From NCBI GenBank assembly GCA_015068495.1, contig SVKL01000001.1, positions 1-64,000 on the forward strand: a DNA stretch of 64,000 nt, written 5' to 3'. Shown in pieces: positions 49,137 to 64,000 of this stretch. The translations under genes were made by a program, and so were the position numbers. Each line of letters opens with the position of its first letter. The stretch's first letter is position 1. This DNA is from Oscillospiraceae bacterium. GTDB taxonomy: Bacteria > Bacillota > Clostridia > Oscillospirales > Oscillospiraceae. The notes below the pieces were generated by a model. The model was not told where the DNA came from. It did no database searches and was given only the letters and a program-made list of their open reading frames with translations.

Positions 49137-49255
49137 AAATCGTTCAGGCACGCTTTTGCCTGTGATTTTACTGAAAACCGCCCTGCCGGAAAAAGGGTAG
49201 CTTTTTGCGGCAGGGTAAGCATTCCCGCAACCGGGATTTGCGGAAAGGGGCAGCA
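49137..49255 (+). promoter_or_regulatory. structured leader of array copy 1
   Basis: The 119-base leader folds by eye into three hairpins: CAGGCA/TGCCTG (49145-49162), a long CCCTGCC...GGCAGGG stem with inner AAAAA/TTTTT (49182-49216), and CCGCAA/TTGCGG (49225-49243) just before AAAGGGG. The sequence differs from the leaders of copies 4-6, but the order (small hairpin, long stem, hairpin abutting the ribosome binding site) is alike. Confidence 0.5.
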
Positions 49256-51904
49256 ATGGACAAGAGAACTTGCATTACACTGGACGGACGTATGGATGAG
49301 GCTGTGTGGGCTTCTGCTAAGGAATACACCGGCTTTTATAAGCTGAAAAGCGAAGGCGGTGAGCTGGCAGAGGCACAGACCTTTACGAAAATTCTTCCCA
49401 TGGAAGACCGGGTATATATCGGTATGAAATGTATGGAGCCGGATATACAGCAGGTAATTGACACCCACTCCACCCGGGATATGTGGGAGGCAGACAGAGT
49501 AGAGCTGTTCATCTCTCCCTCCGGCGGCACCTATGATTACTATCAATTCGTTGTGTCCTTTGGCGGCAGGATGGTTTCCAATTACTATGCAGAGGGCGGT
49601 CAAATTACGCCGGACCCCTACGCACCGGATTGGAAAAGCGCAGTCTACGTGGGAGAGGATCACTGGTCTGTAGAGGTTGAGCTTCCTTTGAAGGCGTTTT
49701 ATATGACACGCAATGCCAATATGAGCGACAAGTGGTTAATCAACACCATTCGCTGCCGCACGGTAAAGAATGTGTATCACAGCATTGCCAGCTCTTTCTG
49801 CGGTTTGGAACGGGGTTACACAGAGTTTGACCGCTTTTTGGTGGCAGAGGGTATGCCGCTGCGGAAGGATGCCGACGATATTTGCATTGTATCAGCCGAA
49901 GTAGATATCCGGGAAAAGGACGAAACCGGCTACGCAGGCTGTATGACCGTCAAGACCTTTAACGGAGTAGATGGCGCGTTTACATTTTCTTCCGATTGTG
50001 CCGAAACGATGGAGGTTGCGCTGAAAGCGGGCGCAAACCAATTCACCGTGCCCTGCCATTTTACGGAGCTGAAGCGGCATCGAATCTCACTGGCGCTGAC
50101 ACGGGCTGAGGACGGGGAGGTATTTAAGCGGTATTATCCCGTAACGACTACCTATGAGCCGATAAAGCTGCGGTTTACACAGCCTGAGTACCGCTGTAAT
50201 TTCTACCCCGGGCAGGATTATTCCAAGATTACAGGCAGCGTAATTGCCGCAAAGCCTGCCACCTTGAAGCTGGAGGGCGCCGGTATTGACACGCAGGTGA
50301 AGACACCCGATGCAGACGGCAGCTTCGTGTTTGAAACCCCCAATTTTGAGATTGGTGAGGCTTGGCTGACGGTCACCATTGACGGCGAGGAGAAGAAGCA
50401 AAGAATCCGCCGTTTGGCGCCTACTGACCGTATGATGACTTGGGTTTCCGGGGGCAATTTGGTTGTGGACGGAAAGCCGGTATTTGCCCGTTATATGTTT
50501 GCACCCACGTATCGGGGCGGCGTTGTGTTCAGCGAAAAGCATAGAGCAGATAACTACTATGAGACGCGGGACATCGTTCAGCAGAGCGGCTGGACGCAGG
50601 CAGAGGTGATTTTAAGCAGAGAGCTGGGCCGTTCCGATGCAGAGGTCAAAAAGGATGTTATGCCCAGTGAGGATGTGCTCCGTTATTTAGACGCCCGGAT
50701 TGAAGCCAACAAAAACAAGGATTTTGGCTTCTATTATCTGTTTGATGAGCCGGAATGCAGAGGCATTTCTCCTGTATATGCCAAGCATATCTACGAGTAT
50801 ATCGCTGACCGTGACCCCTACCACGTGACGGTGATTGCTTCTCGTGCGCCGGGGAGATACATAGAGGCGGCCGACTGGTTCCAGACCCACCCGTACATTA
50901 ACCCCGAGAATTTGCCTGATGGCAGACGGGTTTACAGCCGGCCTATGAAAAACCTGGGCAGCTTTATTGATGAAGTTACAAAGCAGAACAGACCCGATAA
51001 GACCATTGGCTTTATTGCATCGGCCTTTTCCTATAAGTTTGTTTCCCGGTATGCGGATTATCCCACACTGGACGAAACAATCTGCCATATTTGGGCGGCA
51101 ATGATTCACGGCGGAAAGTCCTTGATTCCCTATGCGTTCCACGATATGGCTGACAGACCTGCTATCCGTGAGGGTATGCGCTATATGTTCTCCAGCTTCG
51201 CGGCTTTGGAGGATATTGTGCTGCTGGGAAAGCGGACAACCCTGCTGCGGACAAACGACGCAGAGGCTGTGCTGTATGATCACGCCGATGAGAAGATGTT
51301 CGTGCTGGTGAACTTTAACCAAACACCGCAGACGGTGACGTTGGAGGGTATCAGCGGCACGTGGCACGAATTCCGTCACAACCGCACCATTACCGGCAAT
51401 ACCTTTGAACTGAAACCCTTGGAGGTGATTATCGCCACCAATGTGGTGAAGGATGCAGACCTGCCCACCTATGCAGAAACCGCTGCGCTGATTGACGGGC
51501 AGGAATACGAGCGTACCCACGGGGGAAGCTTGCTGTTTGAACGGGAAAATGATATTACCGTTAAGTCAGCCGGTGTCAGCGCCTCTAAGTACAAGCTGTT
51601 TGACGGTGTGCGGGATGATATGGCGATGTCTGTGTCAAATCAGGGGCAGCGATTCATAGAGGTGAATCTGACCAAGGTAAATGCTTGCTTCCAAAAGATT
51701 GTTATCAGCGGCTGGAATTTGCAGGATAAGGTGGCGCTGAAGCTGCGTATAGAGGGCCAGTTGCTGACACCTGCATTTACCAAAGTGCAGGAGGATGCGC
51801 TGACCACTTCCTTTGCCTTACAGGATGCCGTTTGTCCGGAGGCAATTTATCTGGAGTTTTCCGGGGATGAAGCCATGGAAATGTATGAACTTGAAGTGTT
51901 TTAA
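49256..51904 (+). CDS. array copy 1: CBM9-like/TIM-barrel-like multidomain protein
   Basis: The 882-residue product has a CBM9-like N-domain (about 7-200): CITLDGRMDEAVWASA, then DRVELFISPSGGTYDYYQF, the pattern of family 9 carbohydrate-binding modules. Beta-sandwich segments follow (200-400), then a region like a glycosidase TIM barrel (about 420-700) with YYLFDEPECRG, D497-E498 being candidate catalytic acids, and HIWAAMIHGGKSLIPYAFHD. A short beta domain (VLVNFNQTPQTVTL) precedes a discoidin-like C-terminus (KYKLFDGVRDD to YELEVF). No signal peptide is seen, so it may be cytoplasmic. ATG 49256 follows AAAGGGG. Its TAA overlaps the upstream frame of copy 2. Substrate is unknown. Confidence 0.85.
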   Translation: MDKRTCITLDGRMDEAVWASAKEYTGFYKLKSEGGELAEAQTFTKILPMEDRVYIGMKCMEPDIQQVIDTHSTRDMWEADRVELFISPSGGTYDYYQFVVSFGGRMVSNYYAEGGQITPDPYAPDWKSAVYVGEDHWSVEVELPLKAFYMTRNANMSDKWLINTIRCRTVKNVYHSIASSFCGLERGYTEFDRFLVAEGMPLRKDADDICIVSAEVDIREKDETGYAGCMTVKTFNGVDGAFTFSSDCAETMEVALKAGANQFTVPCHFTELKRHRISLALTRAEDGEVFKRYYPVTTTYEPIKLRFTQPEYRCNFYPGQDYSKITGSVIAAKPATLKLEGAGIDTQVKTPDADGSFVFETPNFEIGEAWLTVTIDGEEKKQRIRRLAPTDRMMTWVSGGNLVVDGKPVFARYMFAPTYRGGVVFSEKHRADNYYETRDIVQQSGWTQAEVILSRELGRSDAEVKKDVMPSEDVLRYLDARIEANKNKDFGFYYLFDEPECRGISPVYAKHIYEYIADRDPYHVTVIASRAPGRYIEAADWFQTHPYINPENLPDGRRVYSRPMKNLGSFIDEVTKQNRPDKTIGFIASAFSYKFVSRYADYPTLDETICHIWAAMIHGGKSLIPYAFHDMADRPAIREGMRYMFSSFAALEDIVLLGKRTTLLRTNDAEAVLYDHADEKMFVLVNFNQTPQTVTLEGISGTWHEFRHNRTITGNTFELKPLEVIIATNVVKDADLPTYAETAALIDGQEYERTHGGSLLFERENDITVKSAGVSASKYKLFDGVRDDMAMSVSNQGQRFIEVNLTKVNACFQKIVISGWNLQDKVALKLRIEGQLLTPAFTKVQEDALTTSFALQDAVCPEAIYLEFSGDEAMEMYELEVF

Positions 51905-51933
51905 TGGAAAAAACTTCAAGGAAAGGAGAAAAA

Positions 51934-54573
51934 ATGGACTATATCACTTTGGACGGACGCTTGGATGAAGCCCTTTGGCAAAACGCCAAGGAATATACGG
52001 GCTTTCGCAGACTAAAGAGTCAAGGCGGCCAAATGGCTGAGGCACAGACCTTTGTGAAAATCCTGCCGCTGCAGGACAGGGTGTATTTTGGCTTTCTGTG
52101 TATGGAGCCGGATATCCAGCGGACAATTGCTGCGCAAGCCTGCCACAATATGTGGAATACCGACAGAATTGAGCTGTTTATTTCTCCCTCCGGCGGTACA
52201 TTTGATTACTATCAATTTATGATGACCTTTGGAGGTAAGACCTACTGTAATTATTATTCTGAAGGCGGCAATATACAGCCGGATCCCTATGCGCCTGTTT
52301 GGAACAGCGCTGTGTATGTGGGTGAGGATTTTTGGTCTATGGAAATGGAAATCCCTCTGACCTCGCTGTATATGACAGGCAACGCCAGTATGAGCGATAC
52401 GTGGCTGGTGGGTGTGATTCGTGCCCGATGTGAGGATCTAAAGGATCCCCGGGCGGTGGACACCTCCTGCTGTGAACTGGAAAGAGGCTACACAGAGTTT
52501 GACCATTTCCTGCGCGTAAGCGGTATGCCTATGCGTCCGGAGGAGGACGATATCCGCATTGTGTCGGCAGAACTGGACATCCAAACCTTGGATGCGCGGG
52601 GCTATTGCGGCCAAATGCTGGTGAAAACCATCAATCCTGCACCGGCAGGCTTTGCATTTTCGTCCGATTGCGGTGAATCTATGGAAGTCGTTCTGCAAGC
52701 GGAAAACAATGCGTTTACCGTACCTTGCTGCTTTGACAGACTGGGGCGGCACAGCGTTTCCCTTGCGCTGACCCGTACAAGTGACGGCAAGGTGTTTCAG
52801 CGCCATTATCCCGTAACGGTGACCTATGAGCCCATTAAGCTGCGCTTTACGCTGCCGGAATATCGCTGCAATTTCTATCCGGGGCAGGATTATTCCAAGG
52901 TTGCAGGCAGCGTAATTGCTGCAAAGCCTGTTACCTTGAAGCTGGAGGGACCCGGCATTGAGACTCAGATAAAGACCCCCAATGCAGATGGCAGTTTTGA
53001 ATTCGATACCCCCAATTTTGAGGTGGGCGAGGCTTGGTTGATCGCTACCATTGAGGGTGAGGAGAGAAAACAGAAGATTCGCCGTTTGGCGCCCACCGGC
53101 CGTATGATGTCGTGGGTTTCCGGCGGTAATATTATCGTAGACGGAAAACCTGTGCTACCCAGAAATATGTTTGCTCCCGGCTATCTTGGCAGTAAGATTC
53201 TTGCCCAGCGGTATGCTACAGAGAATTTCCACGAAACCAGAGAAGTGAGAAGACAAAACGGTTGGATGCGTGCCAATGTGTTTTTGCACCAGTTGGGGCT
53301 TTCTAATGCGGAGGCCTATCAGGATGTAATGCCTCACGAAGCTGTACTTCGGGAATTTGACAAGCAAATAGAGGCAAATAAGGATTACGATTTTGCGTAC
53401 TATTATATTTCCGATGAGCCGGAATGTTCCGGATTCTCTCCCATCTACATCAAAAATGTCTATGAATATATTGCCGAACGGGATCCTTATCACGTAATCG
53501 CGATGTCCACCCGCGCTGCAGAAAGATACTCGGAATGTGCGGACTGGTTTGAGGTTCACCCCTACATCTCTCCGGAAAATTTACCGGATGGCAGACGAAT
53601 TTATTTGCGTCCGATGAACACCATGGGCAATTTCATCGATGAGATTATGAAGCTGGAAAGATCGGATAAGTGTGTAGGCTTCCTGCCCACCACCTTCTCC
53701 TATAAGTTTACCTCCAGCTATGCGGATTACCCCACCTTTGATGAGATTATCTGCCACACTTGGGCGGCGATGATTCGCGGCGGTAAATCTCTGCATCCCT
53801 ATGCCTACCACGATATGAATGACCGGCCCGGGGTGATTGAGGGCGCGCGGTATATCTTCTCCAGCTTCGAGGCGCTGGAAAAGCTTGTGCTGCTGGGCAA
53901 GCGGACGGTGCTGCTCCAGACAAAGGATGCAGAAGCGGTGCTGTATGACCGCGGGGACGAGCAGATGTTTGTGCTGGTGAACTTTACCCAAGCGCCCCAG
54001 ACGGTGACCTTGGATGGCATCAGCGGCACGTGGCACGAATTCCGCCACGACCGCACCATCACCGGCAACACCTTTGCACTCAAGCCCTTGGAGGTGCTGA
54101 TCGGCACCACGGTAGAGAGGGGCACAGACCTGCCCACCTATCAGGAAACGAAAGCGCTGGTGGACAAGCTGGAATACCAGCGTACCCACGGCGGCAGTCT
54201 GCTATTTGAACGGGAAAATGATATTGTAGTGACCAGCAGCGGTATGAGCGTCTCGAAGTATAAGCTGCTTGACGGTGTACGTGAAAACTTGGCAATAGAG
54301 GTGCCGCGGACCGGTGAACGGTTCTTTGAGCTGGATCTGACAAAGGTAAAACCCAGCTTCAGCAAAGTGGCTGTCAGCGGCTGGAATCTGAAGGGCAATG
54401 TGATGCTGAAGGTGAGAGTCGGCGGAGAATTGGTTGCGCCTCAACTTGCTGAGGTTAAGAACGAAGAATTCTTGGTCACCTTCCTGCTGAAAGACACGGT
54501 AAGCCCTGACGGATTACAGCTGGAATTTACCGGTGATGAAGCAATGCAAGTGTTCGAACTGGAAGTGTTTTAA
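51934..54573 (+). CDS. array copy 2: CBM9-like/TIM-barrel-like multidomain protein
   Basis: This 879-residue paralogue keeps the whole order of copy 1: DYITLDGRLDEALWQNA, DRIELFISPSGGTFDYYQF, the conserved EPIKLRFTLPEYRCNF block, YYISDEPECSG (D494, E495), HTWAAMIRGGKSLHPYAYHD and the C-terminal FELEVF. ATG 51934 is chosen over the in-frame ATG 51904, which overlaps the copy 1 stop, because AAGGAGAAAAAATGG is exactly the start context of copies 4-6. There is no promoter or terminator between copies 1 and 2, so they are one transcript, ended by the hairpin at 54591-54626. Confidence 0.86.
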   Translation: MDYITLDGRLDEALWQNAKEYTGFRRLKSQGGQMAEAQTFVKILPLQDRVYFGFLCMEPDIQRTIAAQACHNMWNTDRIELFISPSGGTFDYYQFMMTFGGKTYCNYYSEGGNIQPDPYAPVWNSAVYVGEDFWSMEMEIPLTSLYMTGNASMSDTWLVGVIRARCEDLKDPRAVDTSCCELERGYTEFDHFLRVSGMPMRPEEDDIRIVSAELDIQTLDARGYCGQMLVKTINPAPAGFAFSSDCGESMEVVLQAENNAFTVPCCFDRLGRHSVSLALTRTSDGKVFQRHYPVTVTYEPIKLRFTLPEYRCNFYPGQDYSKVAGSVIAAKPVTLKLEGPGIETQIKTPNADGSFEFDTPNFEVGEAWLIATIEGEERKQKIRRLAPTGRMMSWVSGGNIIVDGKPVLPRNMFAPGYLGSKILAQRYATENFHETREVRRQNGWMRANVFLHQLGLSNAEAYQDVMPHEAVLREFDKQIEANKDYDFAYYYISDEPECSGFSPIYIKNVYEYIAERDPYHVIAMSTRAAERYSECADWFEVHPYISPENLPDGRRIYLRPMNTMGNFIDEIMKLERSDKCVGFLPTTFSYKFTSSYADYPTFDEIICHTWAAMIRGGKSLHPYAYHDMNDRPGVIEGARYIFSSFEALEKLVLLGKRTVLLQTKDAEAVLYDRGDEQMFVLVNFTQAPQTVTLDGISGTWHEFRHDRTITGNTFALKPLEVLIGTTVERGTDLPTYQETKALVDKLEYQRTHGGSLLFERENDIVVTSSGMSVSKYKLLDGVRENLAIEVPRTGERFFELDLTKVKPSFSKVAVSGWNLKGNVMLKVRVGGELVAPQLAEVKNEEFLVTFLLKDTVSPDGLQLEFTGDEAMQVFELEVF

Positions 54574-54590
54574 CAGAAAATAAGCGATCA

Positions 54591-54626
54591 TTTGGGGGTG
54601 CAGAAACGCACCCCCAAATTTTTAAT
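54591..54626 (+). terminator. terminator after array copy 2
   Basis: TTTGGGGGTGC pairs with GCACCCCCAAA around AGAAAC, followed by TTTTTAAT. Confidence 0.9.
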
Positions 54627-54663
54627 ATTTAGCAAAAAAACAGGAAAAAAGAGCCAAAAACTA

Positions 54664-54691
54664 TTGCATTATGGGAAAGGTTTGGTATAAT
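54664..54691 (+). promoter_or_regulatory. sigma-A promoter of array copy 3
   Basis: TTGCAT (54664-54669), a 16-base spacer with GGG near its middle and TATAAT (54686-54691) followed by GAGCCTGTGT. The 16-base spacing and the GAGCCTGTRT start region are shared with copies 4-6. Confidence 0.85.
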
Positions 54692-54697
54692 GAGCCT

Positions 54698-54756
54698 GTG
54701 TAGCGGAAGCACACTTCTGCAAAGCTGAGGGGAATCCCTCGCGGAAAGGGGTAACG
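54698..54756 (+). promoter_or_regulatory. short leader of array copy 3
   Basis: About 60 bases: a start-proximal hairpin (GTGT.GC/GC.ACAC with GGAA loop) comparable to the first hairpin of copies 4-6, then GAGGG/CCCTC (54727-54740) and AAAGGGG before ATG 54757. The three larger stems of copies 4-6 are missing. Confidence 0.5.
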
Positions 54757-57402
54757 ATGGAAAAGCGTTATGAAATTACCGTAGACGGCAAGCTGGACGA
54801 GGCGGTTTGGCAGACCGCAAGAGAATTTACCGGCTTCCGGAAAATGAAAACCCAAGGCGGTGAAACCGTCGCTGAGCAGACCGTTTTCAAGATCCTGACG
54901 GACGGGGAAAATGTCTATTTCGGCGTCAAATGCTTAGAGCCGAATATGGCATTTATCACGGAAAGCTTCCCCGGTAGAAATATTTGGGGCTCTGACCGTG
55001 TGGAGATGTTTATTGCGCCTACCGGCGGCACAAGTGAGTTTTATCAGTTCGTGTTGACCTTTGGCGGCAGACAGATCAGCTATTACTACGCCGAGGGCGG
55101 ACAGATTAAGCCGGACCCTTATGCGCCCAACTGGCAGGGACAGGTTTATATGGGGGAAGATTTCTGGTCTGCTGAGATTCAAATACCGCTAACTGCATTT
55201 TATATGACCCCCAACGAGGCAATGAGCGACAAGTGGCTCATTAACCCCATCCGTTGCCGCGGTCTGGAGGGGAGAAATTATATACATACCTCCTGCTGCG
55301 CACTGGAAAGAGACTTTAGAGAATTTGACAAATTCCTGTGTGTCGACGCAATGCCTATGCGTGCCGCTGAGGATGATATTCGCATCGTTTCGGCAACGCT
55401 GAATATTACCAATAAGACTGAAGATGGGTATGTTGGTCAAATGACCGTGGAAACATTGAATCCGGTGACGGATACCTTTGTGTTCACTTCTGCTTGCAGC
55501 GAGACAGCAACGGTAGCGCTGGAGGCAGGCAAGAATGAGTTTACAGTGCCTTGCTTCTTTGAAAAGCTGGGTCGCAGCAAGATTGCTTTGGAGCTGACCC
55601 GGGAGAAAGACGGAAAGCTGTTTAAGCGGCATTATCCGGTGACGGTGACCTATGAGCCCATTAAGCTGCGCTTTACGCTGCCGGAATACCGCTGTAATTT
55701 CTACCCGGGACAGGATTACACCAAGGTGGCAGGTACGGTGATTGCTGCAAAGCCCGTTACCTTGAAGCTGGAGGGCCCCGGCATTGAAACCCAAGTAAAG
55801 ATGCCCAATGCAGACGGAAGCTTCGAATTTGATACCCACGGCTTTGAAGAGGGTGAGGCTTGGCTCACGGCTACCATTGACGGGGAGGAGAAGAAGCAGA
55901 AAATCCGCCGCTTAGCGCCTACCGGTCATATGATGACGTGGATTTCCGGCGGCAACCTGATTGTTAATGGCAAGCCGGTGCTGGCGAGGAAAATGTTCTC
56001 TCCCGGTTATCGTAACAGCAAGGCGTTTATGCAGGTGTACAATGCGGAAAATTATCACGAGACCAGGCAGGTGACAAAAAACCCCGGCTGGATAAATCCC
56101 GAGCCTACGCTGCAGCGGGAGCTGAAGCTGTCACGGGCAGAGGTTTTTGAGGATAGAATGCCTTGCGAGGAATTGCTCCGCTATTATGATAAGACAATAG
56201 AAAAGCTTAAGGATACAGATTTTGCCTATTATTACATTGCCGATGAGCCGGAGTGCGCCGGCTTCTCTCCCATATATCTGCGGAATGTCTATGAGTATAT
56301 CACGGACAGAGACCCCTATCACGTAATTAGCATTGCCAGCCGGAGCTGCAAGGGCTTTGTGGAATGCGCCGACTGGTTTGAGACCCATCCCTACATTATG
56401 CCGGAGAATATGGAGGATGGCAGACGGGTATACAGCCGTCCTATGAACACTATGGGCGGTTATGTGGACGACATTGTGAAGCTGAACAGACCGGATAAAT
56501 GCGCAGGCTTTATCTCCAGTCTGTATAGCTATGAGGAAAAGAGCCAGTGTGCAGATTACCCCACCTTTGATGAGATGATTTGCCACATTTGGGCGGCAAT
56601 GATTCACGGCGGCAAGAGTTTGCATCCTTACGGCTGCGGCGATATGAATGACCGCCCCGTAGGCACAGAGGGAACGCGGTATATCTTCTCCAGCTTTGAG
56701 GCTTTGGAGGATATTGTGCTGATGGGTAAGCGCACAGTCCTGTACAGAACACAGGAGGCAGAAGCGGTTCTTTATGAGCACGGGGACGAAAAAATGTTCG
56801 TGCTGGTGAACTTCACCCAAGCGCCCCAGACCGTTACGGTGGACGGCATTTGCGGCACTTGGCACAGCTTCCGTCACAACCAAACCCTCACAGGCAACAC
56901 CTTTACACTGCAGCCGCTGGAGGTGCTGATTGGCACAAATACCGTGAAAGATGCCGGTCTTCCCACCTATGAGCAGACAAAGGCGCTGATTGATGAAATG
57001 GAAGCAAAGCGGGTTGCCGGCAGCAGCAAGCTGGTTGCGCTGCGGCACAATTTGACCCAAAAAGCATCCGGCGTGAGCGTAAGCAAGTATAAGTTCTTTG
57101 ACGGCGTGCGGGACAATCTGGCAGGCTCTGTGGCAAAAACCGGTGAGCGCTATTATGAGCTGGGCTTCGGTACGGAAAAGATTAGCTTCAGTAAGGTTGT
57201 GCTCAGCGGCTGGAATTTGAAGCAAAACGTAGCGCTGAAGCTGCGGATAAACGGGGAACTGGTATCTCCCGACGTTGCCGATACGCAGGCGCAGGAATGG
57301 TCTGTTACCTTCTGCCTGAAGGAGACGGTAACGCCTGAGGCTTTGCGTTTGGAGTTTTCCGGCGACGAGAGTATGGAATTGTATGAGCTGGAAGTCTTTT
57401 GA
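54757..57402 (+). CDS. array copy 3: CBM9-like/TIM-barrel-like multidomain protein
   Basis: This 881-residue paralogue starts MEKRYEITVDGKLDEAVWQ and is the most divergent at both ends. The CBM9-like signature DRVEMFIAPTGGTSEFYQF, the conserved block EPIKLRFTLPEYRCNF, YYIADEPECAG (D496, E497) and HIWAAMIHGGKSLHPYGCGD are kept. The segment before the discoidin-like domain differs (VAGSSKLVALRHNLTQK where copies 1, 2, 4 and 5 have the GSLLF region). It has its own promoter and terminator, with the short leader. No signal peptide. Confidence 0.85.
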   Translation: MEKRYEITVDGKLDEAVWQTAREFTGFRKMKTQGGETVAEQTVFKILTDGENVYFGVKCLEPNMAFITESFPGRNIWGSDRVEMFIAPTGGTSEFYQFVLTFGGRQISYYYAEGGQIKPDPYAPNWQGQVYMGEDFWSAEIQIPLTAFYMTPNEAMSDKWLINPIRCRGLEGRNYIHTSCCALERDFREFDKFLCVDAMPMRAAEDDIRIVSATLNITNKTEDGYVGQMTVETLNPVTDTFVFTSACSETATVALEAGKNEFTVPCFFEKLGRSKIALELTREKDGKLFKRHYPVTVTYEPIKLRFTLPEYRCNFYPGQDYTKVAGTVIAAKPVTLKLEGPGIETQVKMPNADGSFEFDTHGFEEGEAWLTATIDGEEKKQKIRRLAPTGHMMTWISGGNLIVNGKPVLARKMFSPGYRNSKAFMQVYNAENYHETRQVTKNPGWINPEPTLQRELKLSRAEVFEDRMPCEELLRYYDKTIEKLKDTDFAYYYIADEPECAGFSPIYLRNVYEYITDRDPYHVISIASRSCKGFVECADWFETHPYIMPENMEDGRRVYSRPMNTMGGYVDDIVKLNRPDKCAGFISSLYSYEEKSQCADYPTFDEMICHIWAAMIHGGKSLHPYGCGDMNDRPVGTEGTRYIFSSFEALEDIVLMGKRTVLYRTQEAEAVLYEHGDEKMFVLVNFTQAPQTVTVDGICGTWHSFRHNQTLTGNTFTLQPLEVLIGTNTVKDAGLPTYEQTKALIDEMEAKRVAGSSKLVALRHNLTQKASGVSVSKYKFFDGVRDNLAGSVAKTGERYYELGFGTEKISFSKVVLSGWNLKQNVALKLRINGELVSPDVADTQAQEWSVTFCLKETVTPEALRLEFSGDESMELYELEVF

Positions 57403-57417
57403 TATGTAATCAGGAAT

Positions 57418-57452
57418 AAATGGGGTGCACCTTATGGTGTACCCCATTTTTA
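57418..57452 (+). terminator. terminator after array copy 3
   Basis: AATGGGGT.CACC pairs with GGTG.ACCCCATT around a TTAT loop, followed by TTTTTA. Confidence 0.88.
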
Positions 57453-57498
57453 CGCCGGAAAAACAGCAAGAAAATCACAGGAAAGTACAAGATAATCC

Positions 57499-57526
57499 TT
57501 GCTTTTTAGGGGGTGTTTGTTATAAT
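57499..57526 (+). promoter_or_regulatory. sigma-A promoter of array copy 4 with overlapping inverted repeat
   Basis: TTGCTT (57499-57504), a 16-base spacer and TATAAT (57521-57526). CAAG and CTTG arms separated by six bases (57488-57501) overlap the -35, as in copy 5, making a possible repressor or activator site. Confidence 0.85.
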
Positions 57527-57532
57527 GAGCCT

Positions 57533-57686
57533 GTATAGAGATACACAGATTCCCGAAACCGCAAGGCAGAAAAACTTGCGGGACTGCCAATGCTCTCAGC
57601 TCCTTTGGAGTGGAGAAAATTTTGTGTTTTTTACATTGGCAGGGTGAAGCGTTCCCTTCTTTGGGGCTTCACAGAAAGGAGAAAAA
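57533..57686 (+). promoter_or_regulatory. conserved structured leader RNA, copy 4
   Basis: The leader has four helices. P0 at the 5' end is TGTAT/ATACA. P1 is CCGCAAG/CTTGCGG (57559-57581). P2 is a 9-bp outer stem, CTGCCAATG/CATTGGCAG (57584-57592 with 57634-57642), enclosing a CTCC/GGAG hairpin and an AAAATTTT..TTTTTT tract. P3 is GTGAAGC/GCTTCAC (57644-57672), ending two bases before the AAAGGAG Shine-Dalgarno. CTCCTTT at 57600-57606 is exactly complementary to that AAAGGAG, so an alternative OFF structure is possible. Confidence 0.7.
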
Positions 57687-60338
57687 ATGGCAAATAAGAA
57701 TTACATTACATTAGATGGACGTATGGAAGATGCAGCTTGGGAAAATGCCAAAACCTACACAGGCTTTCGCAAGCTGAAAAAGAGCGGTGGCGAGCTGGCA
57801 GAAGAGCAGACAATTATGAAGATTTTGCCGGCTGAGGACCGGGTATACTTCGGTTTTCAGTGTATGGAACCGAATATGCAGCAGGTAATCGAAAGCACGC
57901 CCGACCGGTCAATGTGGGGTTCTGACCGGATTGAACTGTTCCTGTCTCCCACCGGCGATACCTTTTCCTACTATCAATTTGTTGTGAACTTTGCCGGCAA
58001 AATGGTAAGTCATTACTATGCCGAGGGCGGAAAGATTCGGCCGGATCCTTATGCGCCCCAGTGGAGCAGTAAGGTCTTTGTAGGAGAAGATTACTGGTCT
58101 TTGGTGATGGAGATTCCTCTGAAAGCGCTCTATATGACCACAAATGACAATATGCGCGATAAGTGGCTGGTAGGCGCAATCCGCAACCGTACATATGACA
58201 AAAATGCGCCTTTGGGCATTGAAAGCTCCTGCTGTGAACTGGAGATCGACTATACAGAGCTGGAAAAATACTTGGTGGTGGACGGAATGCCACAGCGTTC
58301 CTTGGAGAATGACATCCGTATTGTTATGGCCACTGCGGATATCAAGGGTACGGATACAGACGGATATTTTGGCGAGCTGTGTATCAAGACAATGAACGCT
58401 GTGGATGAAACCTTTACGTTTGCTTCCAATTACGGCGAAGCTGTAACGGTCAATTTGGTTGCGGGCTCCAATGAATTTACTGCCCCTTGCCGTTTTCCCA
58501 AATTGGGTCAGTACAGCGTAGAACTGTCCTTGACCCGTACGGGCGACGGAGAGGTCTTTGCGCGGAAATACCCCGTAAAGGTAGACTACGAGCCTATCAA
58601 ATTATCGTTTACGTTGCCGGAATACCGGTGCAATTTCTACCCCGGTCAGGATTACACCAAGGTTGTAGGCAGGGTGGTTGCCGCGAAGCCTGTCACCTTG
58701 AAGCTGGAGGGCCCCGGCATTGAAACGCAAGTCAAGTCCCCCAATGCAGACGGCAGCTTCGAATTCGATACCCACGGCTTTGAAGTGGGTGAAGCTTGGC
58801 TGACTGCCACCATTGATGGCGAGGAGAAGAAGCAGAAAATCCGCCGTCTGGCACCTACCGAGCGTATGATGACGTGGATTTCCGGCGGCAATCTGATTGT
58901 CAACGGTAAGCCGGAAATGATGCGTTATATGTATGCGCCCAACTATCGGGGCAGCAAGCTGCTTTATGCCCAACGGGAAAGGGAGAATTTCCACGAAACC
59001 ACCCACATAAAATGCCAAGACGGCTGGATGAAGCCGGAGGTTGTGCTGGGACAGCTGGGGCTTTCTATGGGCGAGGTTTTCCAAGATGTGATGCCCAGCG
59101 AGCCGATGCTGCGGTATTTTGACAGACGGATTGAAGAACTGAAAAATACGGATTTTGCCTACTATTATCTGTTTGATGAGCCGGAATGCACCGGTATTTC
59201 TCCCATTTACGTGAAAAATTGCTATGACTATGTTGCGGATAAAGACCCTTACCACGTGGTGATGACCACAAGCCGTGACGTGGTCACCTTCGGCGCCTGC
59301 GCGGACTGGTTCCAAGTGCACCCCTATTTGAAGCCGGAGAATTTGGATGATGGCAGACGGGTTTACTGGCATACTATGAACTCTATTGGCAGCTACATTG
59401 ACGATATTTTGAAGATGAACCGGTCGGATAAGTGCGTCGGCTTCCTGCCCACCGCTTTCTCCTATGAGTTCAAGTCCCGCTATGCAGACTATCCCACCTT
59501 TGATGAGATTATCTGCCATACTTGGGCGGCGGTGCTCCGCGGCGCGAAGTCTCTGAATCCCTATGCTCTGCACGATATGAATGACCGTCCTTCCGTGCTG
59601 GAGGGTATGCGCTATATCTTTGCCACCTTTGAGGCGCTGGAAAAGTTTATCCTGTTGGGTAAGCAGACTGTGCTTTTGAAGAACCGGGAAGCAGAGGCTG
59701 TGCTGTATGATTTGGGCGATGAAAAGATGTTTGCATTGGCAAACTTCAATCAGACACCCCAGACCGTTACCTTGGAGGGCATCAGCGGCACTTGGCACGA
59801 CTTCCGTCACAACCGCACCATTACCGGAAACACCTTTGAAATGCAGCCCTTTGAGGTTGTGGTGGGAACCACCAAGGTAAAGGATGAGGGCCTACCCACC
59901 TATGAGGAGGTAGCAGCGCTGATTGATGAGCAGGAATATGCCCGTACCCACGGCGGCAGCTTGTTGTTTGCCCGCCAGAACGACATCGAAGTGCTGGAGG
60001 CAAAGGGTGTAAGCGCTACCAAGTACAAGCTGTTTAACGGCATGCGGGAAGACTTGGCTATGCAGGTTTCCCATAAGGGTGACCGGTTCTACACATTGGA
60101 TGTTTCTAAGGTGCAGGCGACTATGGAAAAGGTGGTTATCACCGGCTGGAATCTGGCATCCAAGGTGGCGCTGAAGCTGTTTGTAGGCGGTCAGGAGGTT
60201 GCTGATTCCGTTGCAGAAGTGAAGACAGAGGAACTGTCTGTTACATTCCTGCTGAAGCGCCCTGTTTGTCCCGACGCGCTGCGTTTGGAATTTACCGGGG
60301 ACGAGGAAATGGAAGTTTACGAAATCGACGCATTTTAA
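57687..60338 (+). CDS. array copy 4: CBM9-like/TIM-barrel-like multidomain protein
   Basis: This 883-residue paralogue begins MANKNYITLDGRMEDAAWE, the form shared with copies 5 and 6. The CBM9-like domain has DRIELFLSPTGDTFSYYQF. The conserved block is at about residues 301-390, and the barrel-like region has YYLFDEPECTG (D497, E498) and HTWAAVLRGAKSLNPYALHD, the only copy with VLRGA instead of MI(H/R)GG. The C-terminus reads DALRLEFTGDEEMEVYEIDAF. Its own promoter, structured leader and terminator make it an independent unit. Function is unknown; sugar binding and hydrolysis are inferred from domain likeness. Confidence 0.86.
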   Translation: MANKNYITLDGRMEDAAWENAKTYTGFRKLKKSGGELAEEQTIMKILPAEDRVYFGFQCMEPNMQQVIESTPDRSMWGSDRIELFLSPTGDTFSYYQFVVNFAGKMVSHYYAEGGKIRPDPYAPQWSSKVFVGEDYWSLVMEIPLKALYMTTNDNMRDKWLVGAIRNRTYDKNAPLGIESSCCELEIDYTELEKYLVVDGMPQRSLENDIRIVMATADIKGTDTDGYFGELCIKTMNAVDETFTFASNYGEAVTVNLVAGSNEFTAPCRFPKLGQYSVELSLTRTGDGEVFARKYPVKVDYEPIKLSFTLPEYRCNFYPGQDYTKVVGRVVAAKPVTLKLEGPGIETQVKSPNADGSFEFDTHGFEVGEAWLTATIDGEEKKQKIRRLAPTERMMTWISGGNLIVNGKPEMMRYMYAPNYRGSKLLYAQRERENFHETTHIKCQDGWMKPEVVLGQLGLSMGEVFQDVMPSEPMLRYFDRRIEELKNTDFAYYYLFDEPECTGISPIYVKNCYDYVADKDPYHVVMTTSRDVVTFGACADWFQVHPYLKPENLDDGRRVYWHTMNSIGSYIDDILKMNRSDKCVGFLPTAFSYEFKSRYADYPTFDEIICHTWAAVLRGAKSLNPYALHDMNDRPSVLEGMRYIFATFEALEKFILLGKQTVLLKNREAEAVLYDLGDEKMFALANFNQTPQTVTLEGISGTWHDFRHNRTITGNTFEMQPFEVVVGTTKVKDEGLPTYEEVAALIDEQEYARTHGGSLLFARQNDIEVLEAKGVSATKYKLFNGMREDLAMQVSHKGDRFYTLDVSKVQATMEKVVITGWNLASKVALKLFVGGQEVADSVAEVKTEELSVTFLLKRPVCPDALRLEFTGDEEMEVYEIDAF

Positions 60339-60354
60339 TTACGCGTAATAAAAA

Positions 60355-60386
60355 GCGGGATGTACCTCCGGTACATCCCGTTTTTG
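60355..60386 (+). terminator. terminator after array copy 4
   Basis: GCGGGATGTACC pairs with GGTACATCCCGT around a TCC centre, followed by TTTTTGC. Confidence 0.88.
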
Positions 60387-60456
60387 CTTGGAAAAGAATG
60401 CGGCAAAATAGTTGCAAAAAAACACAAGATAATTCCAAAAAAATGCAAGATAATCC

Positions 60457-60484
60457 TTGCCTTTTAGGGGATGTTTGTTATAAT
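60457..60484 (+). promoter_or_regulatory. sigma-A promoter of array copy 5 with overlapping inverted repeat
   Basis: TTGCCT (60457-60462), a 16-base spacer and TATAAT (60479-60484). GCAAG-ATAATC-CTTGC (60445-60460) overlaps the -35; a related CAAGATAATTCC half lies 20 bases upstream. Confidence 0.85.
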
Positions 60485-60490
60485 GAGCCT

Positions 60491-60645
60491 GTATGGAAAC
60501 ATACCGATTCCCGAAAACCTCAAGGCAAAAACTTGAGGGGCTGCCAATGCTCTCACTCCCGTTTGGGACGGAGAAAATTTTATAATTATTTTACATTGGC
60601 AGTGTGAAGCATCCTATATTTAGGGCTTCGCAGAAAGGAGAAAAA
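60491..60645 (+). promoter_or_regulatory. conserved structured leader RNA, copy 5
   Basis: The same fold as copy 4. P0 is GTATG-GAAA-CATAC (60491-60504) with a GNRA loop. P1 is CCTCAAG/CTTGAGG (60518-60538), where the G-C pair of copy 4 is replaced by T-A. P2 outer arms are CTGCCAATG (60541-60549) and CATTGGCAG (60594-60602). P3 is GTGAAGC/GCTTCGC (60604-60631) with one U-G in place of U-A. AAAGGAG and ATG follow. Confidence 0.7.
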
Positions 60646-63288
60646 ATGGCAAATAAGGACTACATTACATTCGATGGACGTATGGAAGATGTGGCGTGGG
60701 AAAATGCCCGGGTTTATACCGATTTCCAGCGGATCAACTCCCAAGGCGGCGGCCTTGCCGAGGCGCAGACCATTTTCAAGATCCTGCCTATGGAGGACCG
60801 GATTTACTTCGGCTGTAAATGCTTAGAGCCGGATATGCAGCAGGTAATTGAATCCGATCCCAAGCGAGATCTGTGGGGAGCAGACCGGATTGAGCTGTTT
60901 TTCTCTCCCACCGGCAGCGCTTATGAATACTATCAGTTTGTAGTGTTCTTCAATAGCAAAACAGTGTGCAATTATTACGCAGAGGGTGGACAGATTCAGC
61001 CGGATCCCTATGCGCCGGAATGGAAGAGCGCGGTATATGTAGGTGAGGATCACTGGTCTGCAGTGATTGAGCTTCCTCTGAAAGCTTTGTATATGACGCC
61101 TAACGACAGCTTGAGCGACACCTGGATGCTGAATGCAATTCGTTGCCGTACAGAAGCAGGTAAGGGATGCACAAACAGCTCTTGTGCCCCGTTGGAAAGA
61201 ATTTTTACGGAATTTGAGCATTACCTGCAGGTGAGCGGTATGCCCAGACGCCCTGCAGAGAATGACATCCGCATTGTGTCTGCAGCGCTGGATCTTCGGG
61301 AAAAGAACGAAAACGGCTACAAAGGTGATATGACCGTCAAGACCCTAAACGGCGTAGACGGCACCTTTACCTTTACCTCCGACTGCGGGGAGACCACCGA
61401 GGTTTCCTTAAAGGCAGGCGTAAACGAATTTACTGCGCCTTGCTCCTTTGCAGAGCTGGGACGGCATAAAATCTCCTTGGCGCTGACCCGGGCAGGGGAT
61501 GGGGAAGTGTTTAAGCGGTATTACCCCGTAGTGGCTACCTATGAGCCGATTAAGCTGCGCTTTACGCTGCCGGAATACCGGTGCAATTTCTACCCCGGAC
61601 AGGATTATTCCAAGGTGGTGGGCAGGGTGATTGCTGCAAAGCCGGTTACCTTGAAGCTGGAGGGTCCCGGCATTGAGACCCAGGTGAAGTCCCCCGATGC
61701 AGACGGCAGCTTCGAATTTGATACGCCTAACTTTGAATATGGCGAGGCTTGGCTGACCGCTACCATCGACGGCGATGAAAAGAAGCAGAGAATCCGCCGT
61801 TTGGCGCCTACCGGCTATACTATGTCCTGGATCTCCGGTGGCAATTTGATTGTGGACGGAAAGGCAGTGCTTCCCCGTAAGATGTATTCTCCCTACTATG
61901 CAGGCGGTGAAGCATTCCGCAAGCGCTATGACAACGATAACATCCACGAAACCCGTGAGATAACCGGCTCCGGCTGGATGAAGCCGGATGTGTTCCTTAT
62001 GTGGGATAAGCGTCCTTTGACAGAGGTGCAGCAAGATGGGATGCCCAGTGAATTTGTAAGACGTAAGCTGGATGAGAACATTGAGGCAAAGAGCAAAACA
62101 AACTATGTATACCACTACCCCTATGACGAGCCGGAGTGCCGCGGCGTTTCTCCCATTTACGTAAAGAATGTTTATGAGTATATTGCGGAGAAGGACCCTT
62201 ATCACGTGGTTATGATGACCACCCGCAGCGCCGGTGAGCACGCGGATTGCGCCGACTGGTTTGAGGTGCATCCTTATATCGCTCCCGAGAATATGCCGGA
62301 TGGTCGCCGGGTTTACGGTCGCCCCATGAACACCATGGGTAATTACATTGACGATATTTCCAAGCTGAACCGGCCGGACAAGTGCATTGGCTTCCTGCCC
62401 ACCACATTCTCCTACCAATTCAGCTCTGTCTATGCGGATTATCCCACCTTTGATGAACTGATTTGCCACACTTGGGCGGCAATGATTCACGGCGGTAAAT
62501 CCCTTGACCCCTATGCTTATCACGATGTGAATGACCGGGCGGCGATGTATGAGGGTATGCGCTATGTGTTCGGCAGCTTTGAGGCGCTGGAAGACTTTAT
62601 GCTGTTTGGCAAGCGGACGGTGCTGCTGCGGACGCAGGATGCAGAGGCTGTGCTGTATGAGCTGAACGACCAGAAGATGTTCGTGCTGGTAAACTTCAAT
62701 CAGACACCCCAGACAGTTACTGTCGACGGCATCAGCGGCACTTGGCACGAGTTCCGTCACAACCGTACCATTACCGGCAATACCTTCCAAATGCAGCCCT
62801 TTGAGGTTGTGATCGGCACCAGCGAGGTGCGGGATGCCCGTATGCCTACCTATCAGGAAACTAAGGAACTGATTGATGCCAAGGAATATGAGCGTACCCA
62901 CACCGGCAGCCTGCTGTTTAATAAGCATAACGAAATTGCCATTACATCAGCCGGTATCACAGCCCATCGCCAGTGGAAGATGTTTGACGGTGTGCGTGAT
63001 AACTTCGCTCTGCAAATTTTGAAAGACGGCGAGCGTTTCTATGAGCTGGACCTGACCAAGGTGAAGCCCAATTTCGATAAGGTGGTTATCAGCGGCTGGC
63101 ACTTGGACGGAATCAATCTGAAGCTTCGGGTGAACGGCGAGCTGGTGGAGCCGGAAATTATCGAGGCAACCAACAAGGAGCTTTCTACCGTTACCTTTGT
63201 GCTGAAGGAAAAGGTATGTCCGGAAGGCTTGCGGCTGGAGTTTACATCCCCCAGCGGTATGGAAATTTACGAAATTGAAGTCTTTTAA
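60646..63288 (+). CDS. array copy 5: CBM9-like/TIM-barrel-like multidomain protein
   Basis: This 880-residue paralogue starts at ATG 60646 (MANKDYITFDGRMEDVAWE) behind AAAGGAG; the in-frame ATG at 60604 lies inside leader helix P3 and is not credible. It has DRIELFFSPTGSAYEYYQF, the conserved block, an aromatic-rich variant of the barrel motif (YHYPYDEPECRG; D494, E495), HTWAAMIHGGKSLDPYAYHD and the C-terminus MEIYEIEVF. It is an independent unit with promoter, leader and terminator. Confidence 0.86.
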   Translation: MANKDYITFDGRMEDVAWENARVYTDFQRINSQGGGLAEAQTIFKILPMEDRIYFGCKCLEPDMQQVIESDPKRDLWGADRIELFFSPTGSAYEYYQFVVFFNSKTVCNYYAEGGQIQPDPYAPEWKSAVYVGEDHWSAVIELPLKALYMTPNDSLSDTWMLNAIRCRTEAGKGCTNSSCAPLERIFTEFEHYLQVSGMPRRPAENDIRIVSAALDLREKNENGYKGDMTVKTLNGVDGTFTFTSDCGETTEVSLKAGVNEFTAPCSFAELGRHKISLALTRAGDGEVFKRYYPVVATYEPIKLRFTLPEYRCNFYPGQDYSKVVGRVIAAKPVTLKLEGPGIETQVKSPDADGSFEFDTPNFEYGEAWLTATIDGDEKKQRIRRLAPTGYTMSWISGGNLIVDGKAVLPRKMYSPYYAGGEAFRKRYDNDNIHETREITGSGWMKPDVFLMWDKRPLTEVQQDGMPSEFVRRKLDENIEAKSKTNYVYHYPYDEPECRGVSPIYVKNVYEYIAEKDPYHVVMMTTRSAGEHADCADWFEVHPYIAPENMPDGRRVYGRPMNTMGNYIDDISKLNRPDKCIGFLPTTFSYQFSSVYADYPTFDELICHTWAAMIHGGKSLDPYAYHDVNDRAAMYEGMRYVFGSFEALEDFMLFGKRTVLLRTQDAEAVLYELNDQKMFVLVNFNQTPQTVTVDGISGTWHEFRHNRTITGNTFQMQPFEVVIGTSEVRDARMPTYQETKELIDAKEYERTHTGSLLFNKHNEIAITSAGITAHRQWKMFDGVRDNFALQILKDGERFYELDLTKVKPNFDKVVISGWHLDGINLKLRVNGELVEPEIIEATNKELSTVTFVLKEKVCPEGLRLEFTSPSGMEIYEIEVF

Positions 63289-63296
63289 CAGAATCT

Positions 63297-63338
63297 AACC
63301 GGAACCGGGGTACGCTATGGCGTACCCCGGTTTTTGCG
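63297..63338 (+). terminator. terminator after array copy 5
   Basis: ACCGGGGTACGC pairs with GCGTACCCCGGT around a short loop, followed by TTTTTGC. Confidence 0.88.
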
Positions 63339-63382
63339 GCGGCAATCCAGCAAAATAATCACAGAAAAAAGCAAAATTGTCA

Positions 63383-63410
63383 TTGTGTTTTGGGTGTGGT
63401 TTGTTATAAT
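63383..63410 (+). promoter_or_regulatory. sigma-A promoter of array copy 6
   Basis: TTGTGT (63383-63388), a 16-base spacer and TATAAT (63405-63410) followed by GAGCCTGTAT. The CAAG/CTTG repeat of copies 4 and 5 is not conserved here. Confidence 0.82.
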
Positions 63411-63416
63411 GAGCCT

Positions 63417-63565
63417 GTATAGAAAAATACAAATTCCCGAAACCGCAGGGCAAAAACTTGCGGGACTGCCAACGCTCCTGCGCCTGCTGAGGCGGAGAAA
63501 TTTTTGTTTTTTTTGTTGGCAGTGTGAAAGCTCCCCAGTTTGGAGTTTCACAGAAAGGAGAAAAA
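63417..63565 (+). promoter_or_regulatory. conserved structured leader RNA, copy 6
   Basis: The same fold with further paired changes. P0 is TGTAT/ATACA. P1 is CCGCAGG/CTTGCGG (63443-63463, one G-U). P2 outer arms are CTGCCAAC (63466-63473) and GTTGGCAG (63515-63522), the T-A pair of copies 4-5 now C-G; the inner hairpin is CTCC..CGCC/GGCG..GAG. P3 is GTGAAA/TTTCAC extended by CTCC/GGAG (63524-63551). AAAGGAG and ATG 63566 follow. Confidence 0.7.
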
Positions 63566-64000
63566 ATGGCAAATAAGAATTGCATTACGCTGGACGGACG
63601 TATGGAGGATAAGGCGTGGGAAAATGCCCAAGTCTATGCAGATTTCAAACGGATGAAGTCGGAGGGGGACGACCTTGGCGGCGCACCTACAGTCTTCAAG
63701 ATTCTGCCTATGGAGGACCGGATTTACTTTGGCTTTCAGTGTATAGAGCCGGATATGCGGCAGGTGATTGACAACACCCCCGGCAGGGAAGTGCAGGAAA
63801 TATGGGGCGCAGACCGGGTGGAGCTGTTTTTTGCACCCACCGGCAGCACCTATGAATACTATCAGTTTGTGATGTTCTTCAGCGGAAAGACAGTGTGTAA
63901 TTACTATGCAGAGGGCGGCCAGATTCGTCCGGAGCCCTATGCGCCGGAATGGAAAAGCGCGGTGTATGTGGGGGAAGACCACTGGTCTGTGGTGGCAGAG
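63566..64000 (+). CDS. array copy 6 (5' part): CBM9-like multidomain protein
   Basis: The first 145 codons are in the window and the frame is open to the edge. It begins MANKNCITLDGRMEDKAWE and keeps the CBM9-like pattern DRVELFFAPTGSTYEYYQF, YYAEGGQIRPEPYAPEWKS and VYVGEDHWSVVAE. Compared with the other copies it carries a few extra residues in TPGREVQEIWGADR. The rest lies beyond base 64000, so it is not known whether the gene is intact or whether more copies follow. Confidence 0.85.
   Translation, partial: MANKNCITLDGRMEDKAWENAQVYADFKRMKSEGDDLGGAPTVFKILPMEDRIYFGFQCIEPDMRQVIDNTPGREVQEIWGADRVELFFAPTGSTYEYYQFVMFFSGKTVCNYYAEGGQIRPEPYAPEWKSAVYVGEDHWSVVAE

Follow-up and report, generated by a model that had tools for sequence, protein, structure and literature searches.

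Leader RNAs comparable with the element

In Bacillus, a hairpin at the 5′ end and a strong Shine–Dalgarno sequence are named as stabilisers of mRNA in a review (PMC3997798) and in the discussion of a research paper on the aprE leader (PMC11805744). Leaders of this type, known for aprE of Bacillus subtilis, for ermC and cryIIIA and for ompA in E. coli, carry a 5′-terminal stem-loop and a strong Shine–Dalgarno sequence within an untranslated leader (PMC11805744, PMC3997798). The element described here shares the strong Shine–Dalgarno sequence and has a hairpin at its inferred 5′ end. It is a leader RNA that precedes copies of a tandemly repeated gene, encoding a protein of about 880 amino acids, in a 1.77 Mb draft genome of an Oscillospiraceae bacterium. 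The window, meaning the whole stretch of DNA analysed, makes up the opening 64 kb of contig G000:C9, which has 128,789 bases. The folded leader RNA with its covarying helices is confirmed as real, and as an RNA element it looks new. The leader probably affects the lifetime of its message and the ease with which the ribosome starts.

Compared with aprE, by description and not by sequence, the present leader adds three packed, covarying helices and belongs to a tandem gene family. If the reading preferred below is right, the two would also share the mode of working, which is to hinder attack from the 5′ end. Translational riboswitches, including orphan candidates, resemble it in having a conserved junction before the start codon and a strand able to pair with the Shine–Dalgarno sequence; the present leader differs in its small amount of conserved unpaired sequence, in the occurrence of its full form before one gene family only and in the lack of an Rfam match. 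Ribosomal-protein leaders are leader RNAs bound by their own product. Like the present leader they are restricted to the genes that they precede, whereas here the product is predicted to act on sugars and has no recognised RNA-binding domain.

The interest of the element lies in the combination of a structured RNA without an Rfam match, strong covariation, an origin in draft genomes of ruminant-gut bacteria and a link with predicted sugar-acting proteins whose family has no name. A role in stabilising or gating the messages of the tandem array, if it has one, would show how the genus controls, at the level of RNA, how much is made of many similar enzymes. Should a ligand or a protein partner exist, the element would represent a new regulatory class.

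Architecture of the full leader

The leaders of copies 4, 5 and 6 begin with the P0 hairpin at the inferred 5′ end, followed by the packed helices P1, P2 (with an inner hairpin, P2a) and P3. The last three are separated by 0–2 bases, which leaves little single strand, and P3 runs up to the Shine–Dalgarno sequence AGAAAGGAG. The parts, all on the forward strand, are as follows.

57499..57526, forward: copy 4 promoter-like site, TTGCTT, 16 bases, TATAAT, as read from the sequence; the consensus scanner makes no call and the first hexamer has 3/6 matches
near 57531–57533, forward: copy 4 inferred transcript start, at the foot of P0
57532..57545, forward: copy 4 P0 hairpin, TGTAT-agag-ATACA, at the inferred 5′ end
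57550..57554, forward: copy 4 linker TTCCC, candidate P4 strand, pairing with the ribosome site at 57678–57683
57559..57581, forward: copy 4 P1, CCGCAAG / CTTGCGG
57584..57642, forward: copy 4 P2, CTGCCAATG / CATTGGCAG, enclosing P2a (57594–57616) and the strand GAAAATTTT
57644..57672, forward: copy 4 P3, GTGAAGC / GCTTCAC, immediately 5′ of the ribosome site
57673..57681, forward: copy 4 extended Shine–Dalgarno sequence AGAAAGGAG; start codon at 57687
60457..60484, forward: copy 5 promoter-like site, TTGCCT, 16 bases, TATAAT; 10/12 matches by the scanner, with 0.8 chance sites expected in the region
60491..60648, forward: copy 5 leader, with P0 60491–60504 (GTATG-gaaa-CATAC), P1 60518–60538, P2 60541–60602, P3 60604–60631, Shine–Dalgarno 60632–60640 and start codon at 60646
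63416..63568, forward: copy 6 leader, with P0 63416–63431, P1 63443–63463, P2 63466–63522, P3 63524–63551, Shine–Dalgarno 63552–63560 and start codon at 63566

A sequence-only reading of this DNA had described the leader before copies 4, 5 and 6. It does stand there in full, but it is not restricted to those three, as copies 7 and 8, beyond the window, carry the full leader too; five of the eight tandem paralogues (copies 4–8) thus have it. The exchanged pairs quoted in that reading are present in the sequence, in P1 as G57561-C57579 (copy 4) and T60520-A60536 (copy 5), and in P2 as T57591-A57635 (copy 4) and C63473-G63515 (copy 6).

Folding and covariation

Each of the 12 full leaders, which come from four genomes, shows P0, P1, P2 and P3 when its sequence between inferred transcript start and start codon is folded by itself, with no alignment used. 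The folding z-scores for copies 4, 5 and 6 are −3.62, −4.74 and −3.48 on slices lacking the first bases of P0, and none of 200 shuffles is equally stable. Folding energy alone is weak evidence, since several unrelated members among 181 long 5′ regions of the genome (the family included) fold equally strongly. In the same genome, the 150 bases that precede one other gene (L074 10242–10862, minus strand) have a very stable predicted fold, with z −11.2 relative to shuffled sequence.

The helices covary. In an alignment of 13 rows, comprising the 12 full leaders and one partial leader, with L059, L062 and the rows upstream of the next gene copies left out as matches whose E-values exceed 0.015, 26 of the 35 pairs change on both sides, in 89 cells; the shuffled control has a mean of 27.0 cells (sd 4.3), and sliding the partners by 1–3 columns gives 14–21. 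Cells are paired in 91.7% of cases, against 70.9% when shuffled and at most 46.8% when slid. The number of pair types is the weakest of the measures (56 against 47.7 shuffled, matched by 4/500 shuffles). With 15 distinct rows, a set that includes matches above E 0.015, 29 of 35 pairs and 98 cells are changed on both sides against 27.4 shuffled. In both alignments the model fitted the rows to the structure, which biases them towards it; paralogues from one genome are non-independent, and the genomes are drafts. The counts cover P1, P2, P2a and P3, with P0 and P4 (a candidate pairing of the P0–P1 linker) lying outside the model. Speaking against the structure, an ordinary MAFFT alignment of 10 leaders yielded no more than 9 pairs in RNAalifold, at −1 kcal/mol, because helices from different species cannot be aligned by their sequence. 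In its place, copies 4, 6 and 7 were used to seed a covariance model, to which the leaders were then re-aligned. The earlier proposal of a structured, cis-acting leader whose helices are kept by compensatory change is borne out by these double changes across species.

Homologues and distribution

Covariance models were run against related genomes, and covarying homologues were found in other species. The model R1 was built from copies 4, 6 and 7 alone and holds no other species, so that its detection of leaders in three other species of the genus is an independent test. Its matches score 44.7, 42.2, 34.2 and 32.8 bits in G1119 (taken to be RGIG1705; E 4e-7 or better), 24.1 and 16.4 bits in G060 (taken to be RGIG4651; E 3e-4 and 0.044) and 21.3 bits in G1125 (taken to be RGIG3949; E 0.002). 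The 16.4-bit match is weak when taken alone, as other R1 rows score 14–16.7 bits, some of them reduced leaders at gene copies and one (window 48493) not.

The later model R2 has the 12 full leaders among its own members. With E up to 0.5, it gives 28 matches across the eight genomes that carry the gene family. Of these, the 18 best-scoring ones, at E 0.007 or below and including the model's own 12, all lie directly upstream of copies of the gene family, and one of the ten weaker matches (E 0.0096 and above) precedes copy 1. Four other weak matches were read; by eye they precede a spore-protein-like frame, a mobilisation-protein-like frame and two small unnamed frames, and they combine the ribosome site with one or two helices but fall short of the complete architecture. 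Other genes, too, can thus have a hairpin next to this ribosome site, whereas within the genomes searched the full leader was confined to the gene family. Partial resemblance to the leader is seen at L144 1406–1508, where a CTGC..GGCAG helix with AGAAAGGAG precedes a small unnamed reading frame, and at L141 1377–1495 (minus strand), where a long hairpin beside AAAAAGGAG precedes a spore-protein-like frame.

Wider searches covered samples of genomes, counted the own genome and used stricter filters that lose weak matches. R1 over 295 genomes of the order had matches in 9 genomes at E up to 0.1 (best outside the own genome, 27.3 bits); R2 matched 17 of 400 genomes of the family at E up to 0.1 (best, 26.4 bits) and 9 of 391 genomes of the class at E up to 0.01 (best, 34.4 bits). 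No convincing leader was found elsewhere in these samples, and no relatives were found in viral contigs. Thirty-three foreign loci from these searches were not accepted as members; eight were re-searched and six viewed as alignments, the latter showing mainly AGAAAGGAG with one to three shortened or imperfect helices. The best foreign locus (G985, 34.4 bits) has helices like P2 and P3 and lacks P1 and the ribosome site, while the top match of the search of the order (G154) gave no R2 match at E 0.05. The homologous loci in Victivallales and Kiritimatiellia (L036, L038, L039, L040) gave no R1 match at E up to 1, with upstream DNA present in L038 and L040 only.

The sequence-only reading recognised no known riboswitch class, and the search of Rfam 15 agrees with it. 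The whole window gave tRNA only at gathering thresholds and the leaders gave nothing at E up to 10; on eight loci from relatives, at E up to 1, nothing fell on the leaders and one match fell inside the gene region of L059. No report of the element was found in the literature listed on orphan riboswitches, aprE leaders, leader RNAs and RNA motifs of glycoside hydrolases, Oscillospiraceae or Ruminococcaceae.

Sequence conservation

Over 12 rows, positions conserved at 90% or above number 14 of 52 unpaired and 13 of 60 paired (the alignment of the G060 and G1125 rows is imperfect). The unpaired positions common to all three clades belong mostly to the ribosome site. Comparison of the clades shows little sequence in common beyond the P2 foot, an AA..T stretch 3′ of P2a and the ribosome site, the helices themselves being kept. 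The foot of P2 common to the leaders reads CTGYC/GGCRG, and a GAAAA-T-like stretch occurs in P2 of 11 of the 12 leaders, a count made without a chance control. A conserved unpaired core of the kind expected of an aptamer is not seen in the 12 rows, nor, among the genomes searched, is the element spread over different genes of a shared pathway or over a wide range of lineages; all of the best 18 matches in eight genomes precede one gene family. With CTCC in only 4 of 12 leaders and few unpaired letters conserved, a metabolite riboswitch is unlikely.

The 5′ end of the transcript

By eye, TATAAT or TACAAT lies 5–8 bases upstream of P0, with a hexamer beginning in TTG a further 16–17 bases upstream; the promoter scanner accepts copy 5 alone of the three window leaders (copies 4–6). 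From the sequence we infer that P0 is the 5′ end of the transcript, with the start at its foot. Of 17 family leaders, 14 form a stem of 5 or more pairs at this predicted end. Such a stem is found at 15 of 78 other promoters in the genome, and at 11 of 78 when the sequences are shuffled. The 17 comprise the 12 full leaders, two from G1135, those of copies 1 and 3 and one from G041, other reduced leaders not being included; as members of one family they are related and do not count as 17 independent cases.

A G+C-rich hairpin with a T run is seen by eye after each of copies 2 to 5 (54573–54640, 57402–57452, 60338–60390 and 63288–63340), so copies 4–6 are probably separate transcripts. The scanner reports no terminator on the coding strand in the three leader stretches, yet it also missed the by-eye hairpins with T runs after copies 3–5.

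The ribosome site and its possible masking

The sequence AGAAAGGAG, which we take to be fully complementary to the 3′ end of the 16S rRNA, follows P3 in all 12 full leaders and is a strong Shine–Dalgarno sequence by its letters. In single folds P3 ends beside it or one base into it, and the adjacency of P3 and the Shine–Dalgarno sequence noted in three leaders thereby holds across all 12.

It had been suggested that CTCC in P2 pairs with GGAG of the ribosome site as a translational switch. CTCC is present in P2 of only 4 of the 12 full leaders. The structured leader at the ribosome site survives from that suggestion; the CTCC–GGAG mechanism is not supported, and the conservation does not point to a ligand-sensing class. 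In fold predictions, pairing between the P0–P1 linker and the ribosome site (P4; in copy 8 with the start codon) is a possible and better candidate for masking. P4 is in the lowest-energy fold of all 12 leaders taken alone and is weaker when the fold includes coding sequence. The number of shuffled linkers, of 200, that reach the observed pairing is 2 for copy 4, 7 for copy 5, 3 for copy 6, 0 for copy 8 and 76 for copy 7; it is 8 for G1125, 24 and 26 for G060, and 17, 33, 113 and 161 for G1119. Hence at most 8 of 200 shuffles are as high in 4 of 5 own leaders, in 1 of 3 from G060 and G1125 and in none of 4 from G1119.

Proposed function

The best explanation, to which we give about an even chance, is a structured untranslated 5′ leader that stabilises its own mRNA and tunes its translation, aprE-like in its working. 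The 5′ end of the transcript would be closed within the P0 hairpin, which would hinder decay that depends on the 5′ end. The packed P1, P2 and P3 could remove cleavage sites and present the ribosome site, and the weak P4 pairing may tune initiation. Such a mechanical role at the 5′ end, in stability and initiation, fits better than a metabolite aptamer because the shape is kept while the letters of the helices change, few unpaired letters are conserved and one gene family is served.

Several observations weigh against this explanation. P0 falls below the threshold of 5 pairs in copy 7 (4 pairs), in copy 1 and in one G1135 leader, and a simple stabiliser would not need helices as elaborate as P1 and P2. 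The Shine–Dalgarno sequence is predicted to be partly paired in several leaders, which would lower translation. The codon adaptation of the genes is middling (49th to 78th percentile of 342 genes), and as they are not strongly adapted, very high expression is not indicated.

Alternative explanations

A protein-binding or self-regulatory leader, in which the encoded sugar-binding protein or another factor binds the P1–P2–P3 junction and closes or opens P4, is less probable. The strict placement of the 18 best R2 matches before gene copies is in its favour, and the P2 foot with the GAAAA-T-like stretch could form a binding site. The sequences of the helices, however, are not conserved between species, and Pfam finds no RNA-binding domain in five paralogues, nor does NCBIfam give a match in any of three copies scanned.

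It is doubtful that the leader is a new class of translational regulatory RNA, in which a short helix of linker and ribosome site (with the start codon in place of the latter in copy 8) closes the P1–P2–P3 junction, a sugar or the encoded sugar-binding protein controls its opening and closing, and each tandem copy has its own switch; were it so, single paralogues could be turned on separately. Slightly more doubtful is a translational riboswitch for a sugar or another metabolite, in which P4 serves as the expression platform that closes the junction. The presence of P4 in every leader folded alone speaks for such a riboswitch, as does its excess over shuffled linkers in copies 4, 5, 6 and 8 and in G1125, the linker of copy 8 pairing with the start codon instead. 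Yet P4 does not exceed shuffled linkers in copy 7 or in three of the four G1119 leaders and weakens once coding sequence is folded with it, few unpaired letters are conserved, CTCC is not conserved, Rfam has no match, and the full leader was found before no other gene.

Passive inheritance, by which the likeness of the leaders comes from gene duplication alone and the hairpins have no role, is very improbable. The paralogues are tandem and the leaders of copies 4–8 are 58–83% identical, but the spacers from stop codon to promoter are only 24–62% identical, pairing is kept between species while the letters change, and the double changes speak against it for P1–P3.

Equally improbable is an element acting at the DNA level, as a site of gene conversion or recombination between copies. 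The kinship of leaders and genes is discordant (copies 4 and 7, leaders 83% and genes 68%; copies 7 and 8, genes 79% and leaders 60%; window 57402–63566 and L006 565–6472), so leaders may be exchanged between copies, whereas the fixed place between promoter-like site and ribosome site, with P0 at the inferred transcript start, points to RNA.

Transcription attenuation in the own genome, with P2a, an A run and a T-rich run forming a terminator, is the least probable, for although AAA(A) and T-rich stretches follow P2a by eye in copies 4–7, longest in copy 6, the T-rich run is absent from the G060 and G1119 leaders and the scanner, with the misses already mentioned, calls no coding-strand terminator in the three leader regions.

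The tandem gene family

The own genome has eight tandem copies of the gene, at contig positions 49.26, 51.94, 54.76, 57.69, 60.65, 63.57, 66.52 and 69.47 kb. Those that bear a full leader within the window are the following.

57687..60338, forward: copy 4 gene, 883 amino acids, with a CBM9-like start and a predicted sugar-hydrolase-like fold
60646..63288, forward: copy 5 gene, 880 amino acids
63566..64000, forward: copy 6 gene, start only in the window; the match extends to contig position 66235

The paralogues are 59–63% identical to copy 4 (window 49256–64000 and L006 1–9124). The CBM9-like start is above the curated Pfam cut-off in 2 of 5 copies scanned, and no signal peptide was seen by eye in the protein starts. 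An AlphaFold2 model of copy 4 has a mean predicted local distance difference test (pLDDT) score of 88.5. Foldseek with this model returns multi-domain sugar hydrolases, with low query TM-scores of 0.14–0.25 among the 50 matches listed. In a profile search of solved structures the two ends of the protein find weak matches, an alpha-N-acetylglucosaminidase family protein at E 0.0013 and the xylanase entry 1i82 at E 0.12.

The family is patchy, occurring in 8 of 136 genomes of the genus, the own genome included. The closer relatives that carry it are Oscillospiraceae drafts from goat, sheep, roe deer and water buffalo. Distant homologues at 36–40% identity occur in drafts of Victivallales (goat rumen) and Kiritimatiellia (horse faeces) and may reflect transfer between phyla.

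Reduced and divergent leaders

Reduced or partial forms with P3, and partly with P0, are found at copies 1–3, in G041 and elsewhere. Those of the window are listed here.

49165..49258, forward: copy 1 divergent structured leader, a weak model match (18.8 bits, E 0.067)
51890..51936, forward: copy 2 reduced leader, a P3-like hairpin CTTGAAGT...ACTTCAAG and then GGAAAGGAG, with the stop codon of copy 1 inside the hairpin loop
54686..54756, forward: copy 3 reduced leader, with its own TATAAT, a P0-like hairpin TGTGT..ACACA and, by eye, a P3-like hairpin; no P1 or P2

Copy 2 is without a long leader of its own and still has this hairpin at the ribosome site (51890–51936). The two leaders of G1135 follow the plan loosely; folded alone, all four hairpins appear in one and just P2 and P3 in the other. 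In G1119 and G1125, partial leaders that keep P3 and have lost most else lie at L066 4141–4262, L067 4150–4303 and L065 4134–4287 (minus strand), and they look like decayed or shortened forms.

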